Position numbers and translations under genes: made by a program. A stretch of 64,000 nt of DNA from an uncultured Parabacteroides sp. (GTDB lineage Bacteria; Bacteroidota; Bacteroidia; Bacteroidales; Tannerellaceae), in contig CASFJQ010000022.1 in assembly GCA_949295065.1 (NCBI GenBank), forward strand, positions 1-64,000, in the 5' to 3' direction. The notes beneath the pieces are model-generated. The model was not told the DNA's origin. It ran no database searches and was given only the letters and a program-made list of their open reading frames with translations. Positions 8,440 through 13,710 of this stretch are shown in pieces (position 1 is the first letter of the stretch; each line of letters begins with the position of its first letter).

Positions 8440-9213
8440 TTACTCAATATTCTTTCTTATTTTGCCAAGATATCCTTTTATACCTTCTGCATCTTTATTT
8501 TTTATCATTTCCTGTAAAATCTCCAATTCATTCTGGATACGTTCGATTTGCTTTGGAGTACGAGGATTGAACAGAATTTCAGTCAGCAGATAATCATCTT
8601 CAGAAAGAAGGCCACGGGCAATTTTCATATGACGCTTGAAAGTTGTTCCAGGTGCATCCTGATGCTTCATTGTTGCTGCGAAAACCATAGTTGAAGCGAA
8701 TGGAATGCCAAGTGAATAAGCAACAACTTTGTCGTGTTCTTCAAAAGAATATTCGCAAATATGCAAGTGAAGTTTGCCATATAAATCTTTGAAGAAAATT
8801 TTACCTAAATGGTCACCTTCAGTAATTATGATGGTGTTCTCTTTTTCAAGATTACTCAGATTTGCAAATGTTGGTCCGAACATCGGGTGAGTTGAAACAT
8901 ATGGGAAACCGCATGTTTCATAGAATTCTTTAAGATTTGTTTTTACTGATGCAATATCTGAGATAATACAATAAGGAGGTAAATATGGCAAAACCGAGCG
9001 GAAAGCATCAATTGTGTGATTCAATGTGACGCAGTTTATGACAAGTTCCGGTTTGAATTCCGTTATTTCCTCTTCATTGCAGAGGCGCAGTGCGTTGTAG
9101 ATAAAACGCATTCTTTTCGGATCTTTTTCCAGAACTGCCACTTCGTGTTCGAAGCTCAGAAGGTCTGTGAAAAAAGAACCCATTTTCCCTGCACCTAAAA
9201 TAAGTATTTTCAT
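8440..9213 (-). CDS. tyrA: Prephenate dehydrogenase
   Basis: The 257-residue cytoplasmic enzyme oxidatively decarboxylates prephenate to 4-hydroxyphenylpyruvate, the committed tyrosine step. The N-terminus MKILILGAGKMGSFFTDLLS is a Rossmann NAD(P)-binding loop (GxGxMG). It is followed by CIISDIASVKTN and the substrate-site signature YVSTHPMFGP (catalytic His in STHPMFGP), then the all-helical dimerisation half. It is the last gene of the minus-strand aromatic operon, about 130 bp after the DAHP synthase gene, with an intercistronic repeat between them. There is no fused chorismate mutase; that domain sits on the preceding gene. Confidence 0.9.
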   Translation of the reverse strand: MKILILGAGKMGSFFTDLLSFEHEVAVLEKDPKRMRFIYNALRLCNEEEITEFKPELVINCVTLNHTIDAFRSVLPYLPPYCIISDIASVKTNLKEFYETCGFPYVSTHPMFGPTFANLSNLEKENTIIITEGDHLGKIFFKDLYGKLHLHICEYSFEEHDKVVAYSLGIPFASTMVFAATMKHQDAPGTTFKRHMKIARGLLSEDDYLLTEILFNPRTPKQIERIQNELEILQEMIKNKDAEGIKGYLGKIRKNIE

Positions 9214-9341: not shown

Positions 9342-10418
9342 TTATTTATCATTATTCATTATTATCATCTGCTGACGTACAGATTCTTCGTGAATTTCGC
9401 GCAAGATGTTCTTTACAAATTCAGTACTCAAATCCATTTGTTCACCCATGCTTGAACGATTTTCAAGGATTTCGCTGTAGCGCGGAGACTGAAGGATTGG
9501 CATATTATGTTCTTTCTTGTATGTTCCGATTTCTTTTGAAATACGCATACGTTTAGCCAAAAGTTCAAGTAGCTGCTCGTCGATTGCATCAATCTGGCGT
9601 CGTAGAGCACTTAAGTTTTCAGTGGTCTGGTTTGACTCACGTATTACAAGCAAATTGAGAACATAGTCCAGAACGTCCGGAGTGATTTGCTGTGCGGCGT
9701 CGCTCAAGGCACAATCCGGATTGCAGTGAGATTCGATAATCAGTCCGTCGAAACTCAAGTCCATTGCCTGCTGGCAAAGAGGAGCGATAAGTTCGCGCTT
9801 ACCACCAATATGGCTAGGGTCGCAGAAAATAGGCAAATTAGGCATGCGGCGACGCAATTCGATTGGAATATGCCACAAAGGAAGGTTACGGTAAATTTTC
9901 TTGTCGTATGAACTGAAACCACGGTGGATTGCTCCAAGTTTACGGATTCCTGCACCGTAAATACGCTGGAATGCTCCAATCCACAATTCCAAGTCAGGAT
10001 TAACTGGATTCTTTATCAATACTGGAACATCAACACCTTTAAGAGCATCTGCAATTTCCTGAACAGCAAAAGGGTTAACAGTTGTGCGTGCTCCAATCCA
10101 AAGAATATCTATTCCGGCTTTCAACGCTTCGAATACGTGGTCTTTGTTGGCAACTTCAGTGGCAACATACATTCCAGTTTCTTCTTTCACACGCTTCAGC
10201 CATTTCAATCCTTGAACGCCAATACCTTCAAATCCTCCTGGTTTTGTACGAGGTTTCCATATTCCTGCACGGAAAATCTTTATACCTTTTGATGATAACT
10301 CTTTGGCAGTTGTCATAACCTGCTCTTCGTTTTCTGCGCTACATGGTCCGGCGATAACTATTGGACGCTGTGAATCAATGCCTGGTAGCAAAATTGATTC
10401 CAAATTCATTGTTTCCAT
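9342..10418 (-). CDS. aroF: Bifunctional DAHP synthase / chorismate mutase
   Basis: The 358-residue fusion catalyses the first shikimate step (PEP + erythrose-4-phosphate to DAHP) and the chorismate-to-prephenate rearrangement. Residues about 1-265 are a KDO8P-synthase-like (type I beta) DAHP synthase with VIAGPCSAENEEQV, RAGIWKPRTKPGGFEG, IGARTTVNPF and FCDPSHIGGKRELI. Residues about 275-350 are an AroQ chorismate mutase with LSALRRQIDAIDEQLLELLAKRM. This domain order is typical of Bacteroidetes; the fused mutase can make the synthase sensitive to prephenate. The gene is third in the aromatic operon. Confidence 0.9.
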   Translation of the reverse strand: METMNLESILLPGIDSQRPIVIAGPCSAENEEQVMTTAKELSSKGIKIFRAGIWKPRTKPGGFEGIGVQGLKWLKRVKEETGMYVATEVANKDHVFEALKAGIDILWIGARTTVNPFAVQEIADALKGVDVPVLIKNPVNPDLELWIGAFQRIYGAGIRKLGAIHRGFSSYDKKIYRNLPLWHIPIELRRRMPNLPIFCDPSHIGGKRELIAPLCQQAMDLSFDGLIIESHCNPDCALSDAAQQITPDVLDYVLNLLVIRESNQTTENLSALRRQIDAIDEQLLELLAKRMRISKEIGTYKKEHNMPILQSPRYSEILENRSSMGEQMDLSTEFVKNILREIHEESVRQQMIIMNNDK

Positions 10419-10517: not shown

Positions 10518-11705
10518 TTATTTCCCCATCACAGCCTTAACTCTCCCCAACGCTTCGGCCAGAGCTTCATTCTTGCAGCAGAGAGAAATTCTGATATATC
10601 TTTCGCCGCGGCTGCCGAAGATGAATCCTGGAGTAATGAAAACATTTGCTTCGTAAAGCACTTTGTCGGCAACAGCTTCGCTGCCAGCAGCATCGGCTGG
10701 GATTTTTCCCCACAGGAACATTCCGACCTGGTTTTCATCGTATGTGCAACCTATGGTTTTCATTATCTCACCGGCAAGAGAACGGCGGCTTCTGTATATT
10801 TTGTTCATTCCGTCATACCATTCTTTCTTTGCAGACAAGGCTTCGACTGCGGCATACTGCATTGGCTTGAACTGTCCTGAGTCGATATTGCTTTTCACTT
10901 TCAGAATCCACTGGACAAACTGAGAGTTAGATGCAAGCATCGCCATTCTCCATCCAGGCATATTGTGTGCCTTGCTCATTGAGTTCATCTCAATACAGAT
11001 ATCTTTTGCACCAGGAATGCTGAGGATACTGATTGGATTGTCGTTCAGAATAAAGCTGTATGGATTATCGTTACATATTATAATATTATGTTTCTTTCCG
11101 AATTCAACCAGTTTCGCATATAATTCCATGCTGGCATTTGCTCCGGTCGGCATATTCGGATAATTGGTCCACATAAGTTTTACGGACGAAAGGTCCATTT
11201 TTTCCAGTTCTTCGAAATCCGGCTGCCAGTTGTTGTCTTCCTTCAAATCATAGTTGATAAGATTTGCACCGACAAGTTTGCTTACTGAACTGTATGTCGG
11301 ATATCCTGGGTTAGGAACAAGAACTCCGTCTCCTGGATTAAGGAAAGCAAGGGAAATGTGCAAAATACCTTCCTTTGAACCGATGAGCGGCTGGATTTCT
11401 GATTTTGGGTCCAAATCAACATTATACCATGTTTTGTACCATTCTGCATAACCTTTTCTCAGTTCAGGAATACCAACATAAGGCTGATAGCCATGTTCGT
11501 TGGCATTTCGCGCATGTTCACACAGAGTTTCAATGGTTTGTTCAGAAGGCGGCATATCCGGACTTCCAATACCAAGATTAATCACATTCTTTCCGGCTGC
11601 ATTCATCTCGGCTACTTCTTTCAGTTTCTTTGAGAAGTAGTATTCCTGGACGCTGTTGACGCGTTCTGCCGGAACTATGTTACATACTTTGTTTTCCTTC
11701 TGCAT
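10518..11705 (-). CDS. PLP-dependent aminotransferase of aromatic amino acid synthesis
   Basis: The 395-residue class I/II aminotransferase has the fold-type I signatures NLGIGSPDMPPSEQTIE, GYQPYVGIPELRKGYAEW, the NYPNMPTGA substrate loop, ICNDNPYSF (PLP-ring Asp/Tyr) and the PLP-lysine motif EMNSMSKAHNMPGWRM. By position, second in the operon after pheA, it most likely transaminates phenylpyruvate and 4-hydroxyphenylpyruvate to Phe and Tyr. An alternative is a more general aspartate or LL-diaminopimelate-type enzyme. Its start overlaps the end of pheA by 26 bp, suggesting translational coupling. Confidence 0.85.
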   Translation of the reverse strand: MQKENKVCNIVPAERVNSVQEYYFSKKLKEVAEMNAAGKNVINLGIGSPDMPPSEQTIETLCEHARNANEHGYQPYVGIPELRKGYAEWYKTWYNVDLDPKSEIQPLIGSKEGILHISLAFLNPGDGVLVPNPGYPTYSSVSKLVGANLINYDLKEDNNWQPDFEELEKMDLSSVKLMWTNYPNMPTGANASMELYAKLVEFGKKHNIIICNDNPYSFILNDNPISILSIPGAKDICIEMNSMSKAHNMPGWRMAMLASNSQFVQWILKVKSNIDSGQFKPMQYAAVEALSAKKEWYDGMNKIYRSRRSLAGEIMKTIGCTYDENQVGMFLWGKIPADAAGSEAVADKVLYEANVFITPGFIFGSRGERYIRISLCCKNEALAEALGRVKAVMGK

Positions 11706-12525
11706 ATTCTCCTAATATTTTTAAGTCTTTAGTAAGTGGACGTATTGCATCCAAAGCTTGTCTGTATCTTGTATAGTCTGAAAATGTCAGGTTGATATAG
11801 AACAGATATTCCCATTCTCTTCCGATAATAGGCAAAGATTGGATTTTTGATAGATTCATATCATAGAATGATAAAACTGACAGAACTTTGGAAAGGCTTC
11901 CTGAAGTGTGAGGTAAGGCAAATACAAGAGAGGCTTTGTTTTTAACGGTGTTTCGTTGTATTTCGTCGGCAGTCCATCTGTCAGCTATTGCCAGAAAACG
12001 GGTGAAATTTCTTTTGTTGGTCTCGATTCCTTCTGCCAAAACTTCCATGCCATAGATTTCCGCAGCAAATTTTCCGCAAATTGCAGCGTGGCCTTTAAGC
12101 TTATTTTGCGCAATCCACTGTGCGCTTCCTGCTGTGTCTTCTTTTTCAACAACTTTTGCCGTTGGAATTGTGTCAAGAAAATCGGAACACTGCATCAAGG
12201 CAATAGGGTGGGAGTTTACTTCTGTCACTTCATTTATTTTTGTTCCCGGAAGAGCAACCAGAGAATGTGATATTCTAAGTTTATACTCACCAATTATGGA
12301 GAAATCACTTTCTCTTATCAGCTCGTGATTTTGCAGAAGACTTCCGGCAATTGTATTTTCTATAGCCATCAGACCTAAAATTTTCGGGTCTTTCTTTATT
12401 GTTGAAATTACATCGCGGAATGTATTACATGGAATTGTTTCCACTTCATCTCCTTCAAAATATTGTCGGGCTGCTATATCGTGATACGATCCCGCTATTC
12501 CTTGTATTGCAACTTTCCTTTCCAT
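11680..12525 (-). CDS. pheA: Prephenate dehydratase
   Basis: The 281-residue cytoplasmic enzyme converts prephenate to phenylpyruvate, the committed phenylalanine step. The catalytic half starts with VAIQGIAGSYHDIAARQYF and contains the signature TRF at 175-177 in NFTRFLAI. A C-terminal ACT domain (about 195-270, SLVFALPHTSGSLSKVL) is the site where phenylalanine gives feedback inhibition in this family; the usual ESRP-like stretch reads KIQSLPI here. It is the first structural gene of the operon. It starts 20 bp after an attenuator terminator and about 95 bp after a Phe/Tyr-rich leader peptide gene. Confidence 0.92.
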   Translation of the reverse strand: MERKVAIQGIAGSYHDIAARQYFEGDEVETIPCNTFRDVISTIKKDPKILGLMAIENTIAGSLLQNHELIRESDFSIIGEYKLRISHSLVALPGTKINEVTEVNSHPIALMQCSDFLDTIPTAKVVEKEDTAGSAQWIAQNKLKGHAAICGKFAAEIYGMEVLAEGIETNKRNFTRFLAIADRWTADEIQRNTVKNKASLVFALPHTSGSLSKVLSVLSFYDMNLSKIQSLPIIGREWEYLFYINLTFSDYTRYRQALDAIRPLTKDLKILGEYAEGKQSM

Positions 12526-12544
12526 TGATTTTATAGTTTTAAAA

Positions 12545-12576
12545 TAAAAAAAGTCCCACCAAAACTGGCAGGACTT
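12545..12576 (-). terminator. Attenuator terminator of the Phe/Tyr operon
   Basis: In the minus-strand transcript, AAGUCCUGCCA pairs with UGGUGGGACUU (11 bp including two G-U pairs) around a GUUU loop and is followed at once by a long U run. It lies between the leader peptide and pheA with no gene ending just before it, so it should stop transcription before pheA. Its 5' arm contains UCCUGCC (12567-12573), which can instead pair with GGCAGGA (12633-12639) at the end of the leader peptide gene to form an antiterminator. Confidence 0.88.
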
Positions 12577-12620
12577 TATATTTACAATTGATTATACATT
12601 CAACATCTAGTATCAATTCT

Positions 12621-12698
12621 TTACATACAAACTCCTGCCTTTACCTTGCTAAAAAAGTAAAAGTAATAAAAGTAATATGTAAAGCTAAATCGAGTCAT
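12621..12698 (-). CDS. pheL: Phe/Tyr-rich attenuation leader peptide
   Basis: This 25-codon ORF begins about 21 nt after the predicted transcription start and reads MTRFSFTYYFYYFYFF followed by SKVKAGVCM. Residues 4-16 contain six Phe and five Tyr in 13 positions. That is the hallmark of a leader peptide whose translation senses charged tRNA-Phe and tRNA-Tyr. The stop is about 95 nt upstream of pheA. The GGCAGGA antiterminator segment covers codons 20-22, so a ribosome reaching the stop would mask it and one stalled in the aromatic run would leave it free. The gene symbol is by analogy only. Confidence 0.85.
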   Translation of the reverse strand: MTRFSFTYYFYYFYFFSKVKAGVCM

Positions 12699-12725
12699 TT
12701 TGTCTAATTGTTTTTTATTCTGCTG

Positions 12726-12755
12726 CAAATGTAACGATATTTTTTTAAAACCAAA
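12726..12755 (-). promoter_or_regulatory. Promoter of the Phe/Tyr operon
   Basis: On the minus strand TTTG (12755-12752), an 18-bp spacer and TACATTTG (12733-12726) match the Bacteroidetes -33/-7 consensus. Transcription should start near 12719, giving a leader of about 190 nt before pheA. It lies in the 58 bp between the oxyR stop and the leader peptide start region. Confidence 0.75.
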
Positions 12756-12783: not shown

Positions 12784-13710
12784 TTACACTGCCTTTTGTC
12801 CGGCATGGAGAGACAGCATTTCTTTAGGTACGGAATTACGTATATTTTCCACAAGAATACGCGCAATACTGAAGCGTACGAAGTCTTTCCTGCTTATGAA
12901 TACAATTTCGCGCGTAGGTTTGGGAATAGCAAAAGGTCTTACTAATTCCTTTTGCTTTTCGCTTAGCTGGGTGACTGCCAGTTGTGGAATGAACGTCATG
13001 CCGTTTCCGTTTTCAACCATTCGCATAAAGGTTTCCAGGCTTCCAAGTCTGTAGGCCGCCTGGTTGATTTTTACTTTCTCACGTTGGCAGAACCTTACCA
13101 GCTGGTCGCGGAAGCAATGTCCTTCATCGAGCAGCCATAGCCTTTCGTCGTTGATGTCGGCTGTTTTTATAATAGGCTGTTCGAAGATTGGTTCTTCTCT
13201 TGAAATATATCCGAAGAATTCCTCGAAATATAGAGTTGTTCCGTCGAGTGCCGGATCATCCGGCTGGTTGGCTATTATTGCCGCGTCGATTTCTCCTTGT
13301 TTTATGGCAGCCATAGTAGGAGCTGTTTGCATTTCCAGGATTCGTAGGTCCAGTTCAGGATATTGTTGTTGTATTTTATGCATTATGCGAGGAAGCAGGT
13401 AAGGCGCAATTGTAGGTAACACGGCAAGACGGAATGTTCCGCTGATTTGTTCTTCCTCTTCTTTTACTATATCCTTGATTTTGGAAACCTGCTGTAGGAC
13501 TGTTCTTGCCTGCTGCAAAACTTTTTTACCGGTAGGTGTGGGTTTGATAGGTTGTGACGAGCGGTCGAATATTTTCACTTCAAGCTCATCTTCCAGTTTC
13601 TGTATCATTGTACTCAAGGTTGGTTGAGTCACTCTACAATGCTCGGCTGCTTTGGCAAAATGCTTATAATTTTCTACGGCAAGGATATATTCCAGTTGTT
13701 GTATGTTCAT
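12784..13710 (-). CDS. oxyR: Hydrogen peroxide-sensing regulator OxyR
   Basis: The 308-residue LysR-type regulator has an N-terminal winged helix-turn-helix (NIQQLEYILAVENYKHFAKA, VTQPTLSTMIQKLE) and a C-terminal periplasmic-binding-like sensor domain. Both redox cysteines of OxyR are present at the E. coli positions, Cys199 in DEGHCFRDQ and Cys208 in VRFCQRE, so peroxide should drive a disulfide switch. This separates it from generic LysR proteins. It activates catalase, Dps and peroxidase genes in Bacteroides; no such gene adjoins it here, although tpx lies 27 kb away. Confidence 0.92.
   Translation of the reverse strand: MNIQQLEYILAVENYKHFAKAAEHCRVTQPTLSTMIQKLEDELEVKIFDRSSQPIKPTPTGKKVLQQARTVLQQVSKIKDIVKEEEEQISGTFRLAVLPTIAPYLLPRIMHKIQQQYPELDLRILEMQTAPTMAAIKQGEIDAAIIANQPDDPALDGTTLYFEEFFGYISREEPIFEQPIIKTADINDERLWLLDEGHCFRDQLVRFCQREKVKINQAAYRLGSLETFMRMVENGNGMTFIPQLAVTQLSEKQKELVRPFAIPKPTREIVFISRKDFVRFSIARILVENIRNSVPKEMLSLHAGQKAV

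Follow-up and report, generated by a model that had tools for sequence, protein, structure and literature searches.

The region upstream of pheA in the 64,000-nucleotide stretch of DNA analysed here (the window) is very probably a classical ribosome-mediated transcription attenuator, one that would read the charging of both tRNA-Phe and tRNA-Tyr. Sequence comparison demonstrates a promoter, a leader, three alternative stems with covariation, the position of the switch and a match between the codons of the leader and the content of the operon. Several elements by which an attenuator is recognised are found at the locus: a leader ORF containing codons for the products of the pathway, a terminator before the first gene, and a competing antiterminator at the end of the leader. 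A further one, that the position of the ribosome decides the outcome, is found in the folding model.

The element is encoded on the minus strand and separates pheA from a gene for a LysR-type regulator (Table 1). After the leader, the gene order on this strand is pheA, aminotransferase, DAHP synthase/chorismate mutase (CM) and tyrA, and therefore the operon serves the synthesis of both Phe and Tyr. The positions given in the original prediction hold for its features, with the correction that all of them lie on the minus strand. Its consensus promoter is also present, although not as a sigma-70 type: the E. coli-type promoter was rejected, as 0 were found at the window locus, and the elements are instead TTTG and TACATTTG, which we take to represent the Bacteroidetes consensus TTTG / TAnnTTTG. 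The full arrangement TTTG-N17-22-TAnnTTTG occurs upstream of 76 of 166 leaders, compared with 0.25 in shuffles, and TAnnTTTG is found no more than 75 nt 5' of the ATG in 124 of 166, compared with 8.2 in shuffles, its median start being 34 nt before the leader ATG. The LysR-type regulator gene (12784-13710, minus strand; Pfam) is directly upstream of the element and in the same orientation.

Table 1. Features of the attenuator and its operon in the window, in order of transcription
Feature	Position	Strand	Basis
-33 element TTTG, Bacteroidetes-type promoter	12752..12755	-	sequence match
-7 element TACATTTG (TAnnTTTG)	12726..12733	-	sequence match
Leader ORF, 25 codons and stop, MTRFSFTYYFYYFYFFSKVKAGVCM	12621..12698	-	translation
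Regulatory codon run, codons 4-16, 6 Phe and 5 Tyr	12651..12689	-	translation
Protector stem 5' strand CUUUACAUA (region 1)	12676..12684	-	fold and covariation
Inner protector helix 5' strand CUUUUACUUU, from run codons 12-15	12654..12663	-	covariation
Inner protector helix 3' strand AAGGUAAAGG	12638..12647	-	covariation
Region 2, antiterminator 5' strand GGCAGGAGUUUGUAU	12625..12639	-	covariation
Protector stem 3' strand UAUGUAAAG	12619..12627	-	fold and covariation
Region 3, antiterminator 3' strand AUAUAAAGUCCUGCC, partly shared with the 5' arm of the terminator	12567..12581	-	covariation, shuffled and swapped-arm controls
Intrinsic terminator hairpin (regions 3 and 4)	12550..12577	-	12 pairs, 5 G-C, loop of 4
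U-rich tail UUUUAUUUUA; tail assigned to the terminator hairpin, TTTTATTTTA	12540..12549	-	sequence
pheA, prephenate dehydratase	11680..12525	-	Pfam PDT 1.9e-53
Class I/II aminotransferase of the operon	10518..11705	-	Pfam Aminotran_1_2 3.2e-60
DAHP synthase-chorismate mutase fusion	9342..10418	-	Pfam DAHP_synth_1 2.6e-42, CM_2 1.4e-25
tyrA, prephenate dehydrogenase	8440..9213	-	Pfam PDH_N 1.3e-07

The leader MTRFSFTYYFYYFYFFSKVKAGVCM has Phe at codons 4, 6, 10, 13, 15 and 16 and Tyr at codons 8, 9, 11, 12 and 14, exactly the 11 aromatic residues in codons 4-16 of a 25-codon ORF that had been predicted. An alignment of 73 rows was built from the window and 72 loci, excluding L078, in which no terminator was found, and L080, which has a long spacing. 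Its codons 9, 10 and 11 are Tyr in 35, 35 and 36 rows and Phe in 30, 36 and 36 rows, respectively. Codons 12-14 are almost invariant including the third base (TAC TTT TAC), and this stretch forms the 5' strand of the inner protector helix. Past the run, some lineages show an early stop or another reading frame of the same RNA (e.g. L042 and L054). As judged from these sequences, the leader peptide itself is not what is conserved. It is accordingly very unlikely that the short ORF encodes a small functional protein or an arrest peptide and that the hairpin merely ends the transcript of the upstream gene: the two aromatic residues replace each other freely, the frame is abandoned or cut short as just described, and promoter, leader and terminator make up one unit leading into pheA. 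In Parabacteroides the C-terminal KVKAGVCM is kept at the peptide level, which would favour a functional product, and we attribute this conservation to the covarying RNA. Elsewhere in the genome of the window, aromatic runs occur at just two more places; since the control with the pattern read backwards gave the higher count (8 vs 6), we do not propose a second leader.

The stems of a leader that acts as an attenuator are likewise discernible in the window. The terminator hairpin and U run expected just before pheA are located at 12577-12550 on the minus strand, the end of the hairpin being 24 bases from the start of pheA. GGCAGGA (12639-12633) and the complementary UCCUGCC (12573-12567) occur as the original prediction described, and the antiterminator extends beyond this core as GGCAGGAGUUUGUAU/AUAUAAAGUCCUGCC with one G.G mismatch. 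The CUUUAC/GUAAAG pairing proposed as a protector is real and longer than had been claimed, comprising CUUUACAUA/UAUGUAAAG and, in addition, the inner helix CUUUUACUUU/AAGGUAAAGG. The fold of the window RNA has a z value of -4.84, with 0 of 200 shuffles equally stable, and is predicted to consist of the long protector hairpin, including the helix of run codons, and the terminator.

Across the 73 rows, the terminator is paired in 99.1% of cells with 25 cells changed on both sides, the antiterminator in 89.9% with 12, the outer protector in 92.2% with 36, and the inner protector in 94.6% with 10, although the rows are related and these covarying cells are therefore not independent events. One core pair of the antiterminator changes from GC to AU in 7 rows, and one pair of the inner protector from CG to UA in 6 rows, where a Tyr codon TAC becomes TAT and is matched by its partner. 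Each helix exceeds its own slid versions both in cells paired and in covariation score, and 0 of 500 shuffles reached either value. Other measures were less clear: 101 of 500 shuffles had at least as many pairs changed on both sides as the outer protector and 152 of 500 at least as many as the inner one, which 351 of 500 also equalled in further pair types. At the level of the aligned sequences, terminator, antiterminator and protector covary.

Outside the close group, the arm sequences diverge widely, e.g. CGAGGCTT/AAGCCTCG, GGTCGGG/CCCGACC and GGTGAGG/CCTCACC. We defined a strong own-arm antiterminator helix as a score of at least 16 between the region after the run and the terminator arm of the same locus. 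Such a helix is present in 81 of 121 loci outside the Tannerellaceae-type set, compared with 2.7 for shuffled regions and 16.8 (maximum 23.0) when arms were swapped between loci. Among all 167 leaders, 156 have at least 25 bases between run and terminator and were used for the antiterminator and folding tests; 116 of these, from all lineages, bear the helix. The median distance from the last aromatic codon to its start is 11 nt, and in 100 of the 116 it reaches to no more than 15 nt from the stop codon. A terminator with a dG not above -8 kcal/mol is found in 166 of 167 leaders, compared with 24 of 167 shuffles. The original prediction had named as its check that relatives should keep both the leader ORF and the GGCAGGA/UCCUGCC pairing. 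This is borne out by compensatory changes in three stems, by conservation across the class and by the swapped-arm controls.

We propose that, when tRNA-Phe and tRNA-Tyr are both charged, the ribosome would cross the aromatic codons to the end of the leader and cover region 2 (GGCAGGA...), whereupon the terminator would form and transcription would stop before pheA. When either charged tRNA is short, the ribosome would stall in the run, the protector stem would be opened and region 2 left free; it could then pair with the 5' arm of the terminator, and the polymerase would read into pheA-aminotransferase-DAHP synthase/CM-tyrA. With no translation, the protector stem would favour termination. We infer that the leader is translated, that ribosomes stall in it, that read-through changes, and that Tyr is sensed as well as Phe.

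To model the position of the ribosome, the window RNA was folded for each A-site codon with everything under and behind the ribosome removed. In the absence of a ribosome the terminator has a predicted probability of 1.00. With the A site at codon 3 the value is 0.99; it lies at 0.45-0.12 over codons 4-8, is 0.00 throughout codons 9-16, recovers to 0.47 at codon 17 and is back at 1.00 from codon 18 until the stop. In this model the fold flips at the end of the aromatic run, which reproduces the predicted behaviour of a ribosome stalled in the run giving the antiterminator and one at the stop codon giving the terminator. The complete three-state logic is obtained at equilibrium in 34 of 156 leaders, compared with 1 of 468 controls. 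Since the terminator would win at equilibrium in most members, antitermination must be kinetic. When folding was evaluated for the stage before the 3' arm of the terminator exists, the 5' arm was held upstream with a stalled ribosome and free with a ribosome at the stop in 141 of 156 loci, compared with 54 of 312 shuffles. The window RNA cut before the 3' arm forms the antiterminator even without a ribosome. The protector stem is present and covarying, and the terminator probability of 1.00 without a ribosome holds in the full-length window RNA only, so that the predicted state without translation depends on the fold of that complete RNA.

Control of the terminator by a riboswitch or an RNA-binding protein rather than by the ribosome has only a slight likelihood. 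Although the structured 5' leader speaks for such control, the codon run is the main constant outside the stems, the predicted switch falls at its last codons, and neither the window nor 20 related loci gave a match to any Rfam riboswitch or T-box at the gathering score.

The leader is distributed widely. For Bacteroidales, a leader was counted when an ORF beginning with ATG and holding 7 or more Phe/Tyr within 12 codons lay no farther than 400 bases 5' of pheA. A pheA match was present in 160 genomes; 22 of them were left out (many of them lower-scoring or at a contig edge) and L159 was too short, so that 137 remained. Of the 137, 124 have a leader, compared with 1 of 137 for the reverse complement and 0.7 of 137 for dinucleotide shuffles. 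Phe and Tyr codons do come easily in AT-rich intergenic DNA, the looser threshold of at least 4 in 12 codons arising in 42.3 of 137 shuffles, and this would be the ground for regarding the ORF and the nearby terminator as a chance pairing. Given the contrast at the strict threshold and the covarying stems, conservation refutes this explanation, whose probability we consider negligible. The 13 genomes without a leader at the strict threshold include several with sub-threshold or ATG-less aromatic runs (e.g. L156, L182, L197, L206 and L209), and nothing convincing was seen upstream of pheA in L131, L141, L148 and L184.

Among 80 loci of close relatives, mostly Tannerellaceae, L050 begins at pheA and L021, L026 and L077 have no more than 143 upstream bases; the leader is present in 74 of the remaining 76, which have enough upstream DNA. 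One of the two others, L061, has neither terminator nor leader ORF upstream of pheA. At L038 the terminator is kept and the leader ORF was not found, owing to either a decayed leader or an assembly error.

The search of the phylum covered 67 upstream regions of 212 newly matching genomes, of which 20 belong to genomes of other classes, from different families, picked before their upstream regions were inspected; G483 was added later on account of its high PheA score. Other orders of Bacteroidia have the leader in 40 of 44 cases at a threshold of at least 7 Phe/Tyr/Trp, the four misses being L233, L241 and L245, which belong to one genus, and L267, whose run lacks an ATG start. By contrast, it is present in 4 and absent in 20 of 24 genomes of other classes. 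The carriers are G341 (L219/L328), G393 (L269/L312), G460 (L226/L329) and G483 (L327), and their PheA proteins group with those of Bacteroidia and not with 16 leaderless PheAs of other classes (branch support 94/98). These genomes pair a Bacteroidia-type PheA with an aromatic leader, as if operon and attenuator had moved together.

To relate codon content to operon content, the downstream genes were read for 61 leaders, excluding L305, which has no ATG-started leader. In five genomes from four families (G271, G062, G052, G133 and G278), pheA stands alone, i.e. without a same-strand aminotransferase, DAHP synthase/CM or tyrA in the 5.1-5.6 kb downstream, a share that is no population estimate because the loci were chosen partly for low Tyr. 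The Tyr share of the leader is at most 0.14 in all five of these, the run being Phe-only or nearly so (0-1 Tyr), whereas 55 of 56 operon leaders have a share of 0.18-0.78. Only G104 (0.11) departs from this, with a near Phe-only leader in front of a complete operon. Stand-alone pheA thus accounts for 5 of 6 low-Tyr leaders and 0 of 55 others (p = 1.0e-6, ignoring kinship and the choice for low Tyr). On the PheA tree there are four changes between the stand-alone and operon states, all forced by well-supported branches.

In three of the stand-alone families, the split-off tyrA genes have a Phe/Tyr leader of their own, and the leaders of split-off operons with tyrA have Tyr equal to or exceeding Phe. 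The order aminotransferase-DAHP synthase/CM-tyrA lies behind leaders such as MIKNISVFAYFYYYFYFSNK and a terminator in G176, G271 and G062, and in G052 the leader MNNTFGYYAFYYYFFYNN and a terminator precede the tyrA, DAHP synthase/CM and dehydroquinate synthase genes. G133 and G318 have two tandem aromatic leaders, each with a terminator, before aminotransferase, tyrA and DAHP synthase/CM. The tandem leaders lie in L397:1-470 (G318) and in the reverse complement of L398 (G133), e.g. MMTTYTFSYFYYWFRTP followed by MVNFEFYYGFYYYLD. No leader was found at the split-off genes of G278 and G072, where the DAHP synthase matches are at contig ends, and pheA of G176 and G318 has no detectable leader. This leaderless pheA of G176 (L148) is in the same genus as Phe-only leaders, and its split-off aminotransferase-DAHP synthase/CM-tyrA operon keeps a leader.

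The loss of Tyr codons from the leaders of stand-alone pheA genes supports the suggestion that the mixed Phe/Tyr codons fit a two-product operon. It is possible that only stalling at Phe codons matters and that the Tyr codons, one base off Phe codons, are tolerated neighbours. Codons 9-11 interchange Phe and Tyr freely, and the Phe-Tyr-Phe leader of C. glutamicum reportedly answers Phe and not Tyr (accessible text of PMC11802643). However, Tyr falls to 0-1 in 5 of 5 stand-alone runs, all 56 operon leaders keep at least 1 Tyr and 55 have at least 2, and in the leaders of the split-off tyrA operons Tyr is at least as frequent as Phe. We therefore consider Phe-only sensing rather unlikely, and retain the reading of both tRNAs.

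Tryptophan codons might add a third input. With the cores of 167 leaders defined by Phe and Tyr only, Trp makes up 21 of 327 other residues inside the core, compared with 25 of 1872 outside (Fisher p 4.5e-7, kinship ignored). This enrichment suggests that some lineages sense all three aromatic amino acids, which would make sense because the operon holds DAHP synthase. On a broader scale, we see about even chances that this is an ancestral aromatic attenuator of the class Bacteroidia, perhaps among the most widely kept, that senses Phe, Tyr and in many lineages Trp at once and travels with the pheA operon into other classes; upon splitting of the operon, the codons would have been re-sorted to the products of each piece, with tandem attenuators in one family.

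With the proposed attenuator, the synthesis of Phe and Tyr in a dominant gut and environmental class gains a concrete, testable control circuit; such control is little described for this class in the literature we found. The operon splits constitute a natural experiment linking leader codons to operon products, and let one ask whether one leader can report two charged tRNAs. The leader alignment, furthermore, is a basis for a possible Rfam family.

Searches with known RNA families gave only sub-threshold matches, among them PyrR at 25.1 bits and Phe_leader (RF01859) at 20.4 bits (E 0.6, gathering 55), and these were judged to be chance. Bacteroid-trp (RF01692), described in the original prediction as a tryptophan leader, had no gathering-score match in the window or the 20 related loci. 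It is a cis-regulatory RNA listed for Bacteroidetes in Table 1 of PMC2864571, as far as that source was accessible. The same table names the Leu/phe leader of Lactococcus (RF01743), which likewise refers to two amino acids; it belongs to another phylum, concerns other amino acids, and had no match in the window or the 20 related loci. The table also lists, for Bacteroidetes and Proteobacteria, a weak candidate called GUCCY-hairpin, known to us by name only. Many terminators here start with GUCCC or GUCCU, and part of that motif might be such terminators.

Bacteroidetes/Chlorobi are reportedly mentioned in the attenuator survey of Vitreschak 2004. According to the accessible text of Naville 2010 (PMC2965389), Proteobacteria and Actinobacteria were the only groups with demonstrated leader-peptide systems until the Firmicutes case of that study. 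The available parts of later sources mention leader-peptide-like sORFs in B. thetaiotaomicron (Ryan 2020, PMC7366714) and, from a survey that covered 26 genomes in 2021, a candidate leader of aroF in Acholeplasma (PMC8632094). Guerin 2021 (PMC9723704), as far as accessible, reports clues that amino-acid operons of Flavobacterium psychrophilum are preceded by attenuating leader peptides, together with a structured 5' element of pheA that is conserved in Flavobacteriaceae and has no Rfam hit. Compared by description, this is probably the same element as our non-Bacteroidales leaders, although the accessible description names no Phe/Tyr codons, alternative stems or Bacteroidales occurrence. In our literature search, with subscription papers mostly outside its reach, we recognised no paper that describes a Phe/Tyr attenuator upstream of pheA for Bacteroidales. 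The original statement that no Phe+Tyr version is known in this group is qualified by the Flavobacteriaceae pheA element with its clues to attenuation, and by the Phe-Tyr-Phe leader of Corynebacterium.

In E. coli, pheL (RF01859) is likewise a leader peptide before pheA, set by Phe-charged tRNA (accessible text of PMC11802643). It is a functional relative of the Bacteroidia leader rather than a relative in sequence or structure, since the latter has both Phe and Tyr codons, precedes an operon for both amino acids and occurs in another phylum. The aroR leader of C. glutamicum, located before aroF (DAHP synthase), has the Phe-Tyr-Phe sequence mentioned above, which PMC11802643, as accessible, reports from Neshat 2014, and is reported to respond to Phe only. 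Whereas aroR belongs to Actinobacteria, the Bacteroidia leaders have dense runs (at least 7 of 12 codons) in which the Tyr codons follow the content of the operon. Given the precedents of pheL, aroR and the Flavobacteriaceae, the mechanism is already known; the class-wide breadth of the leader and the tracking of operon content by its codons look new.
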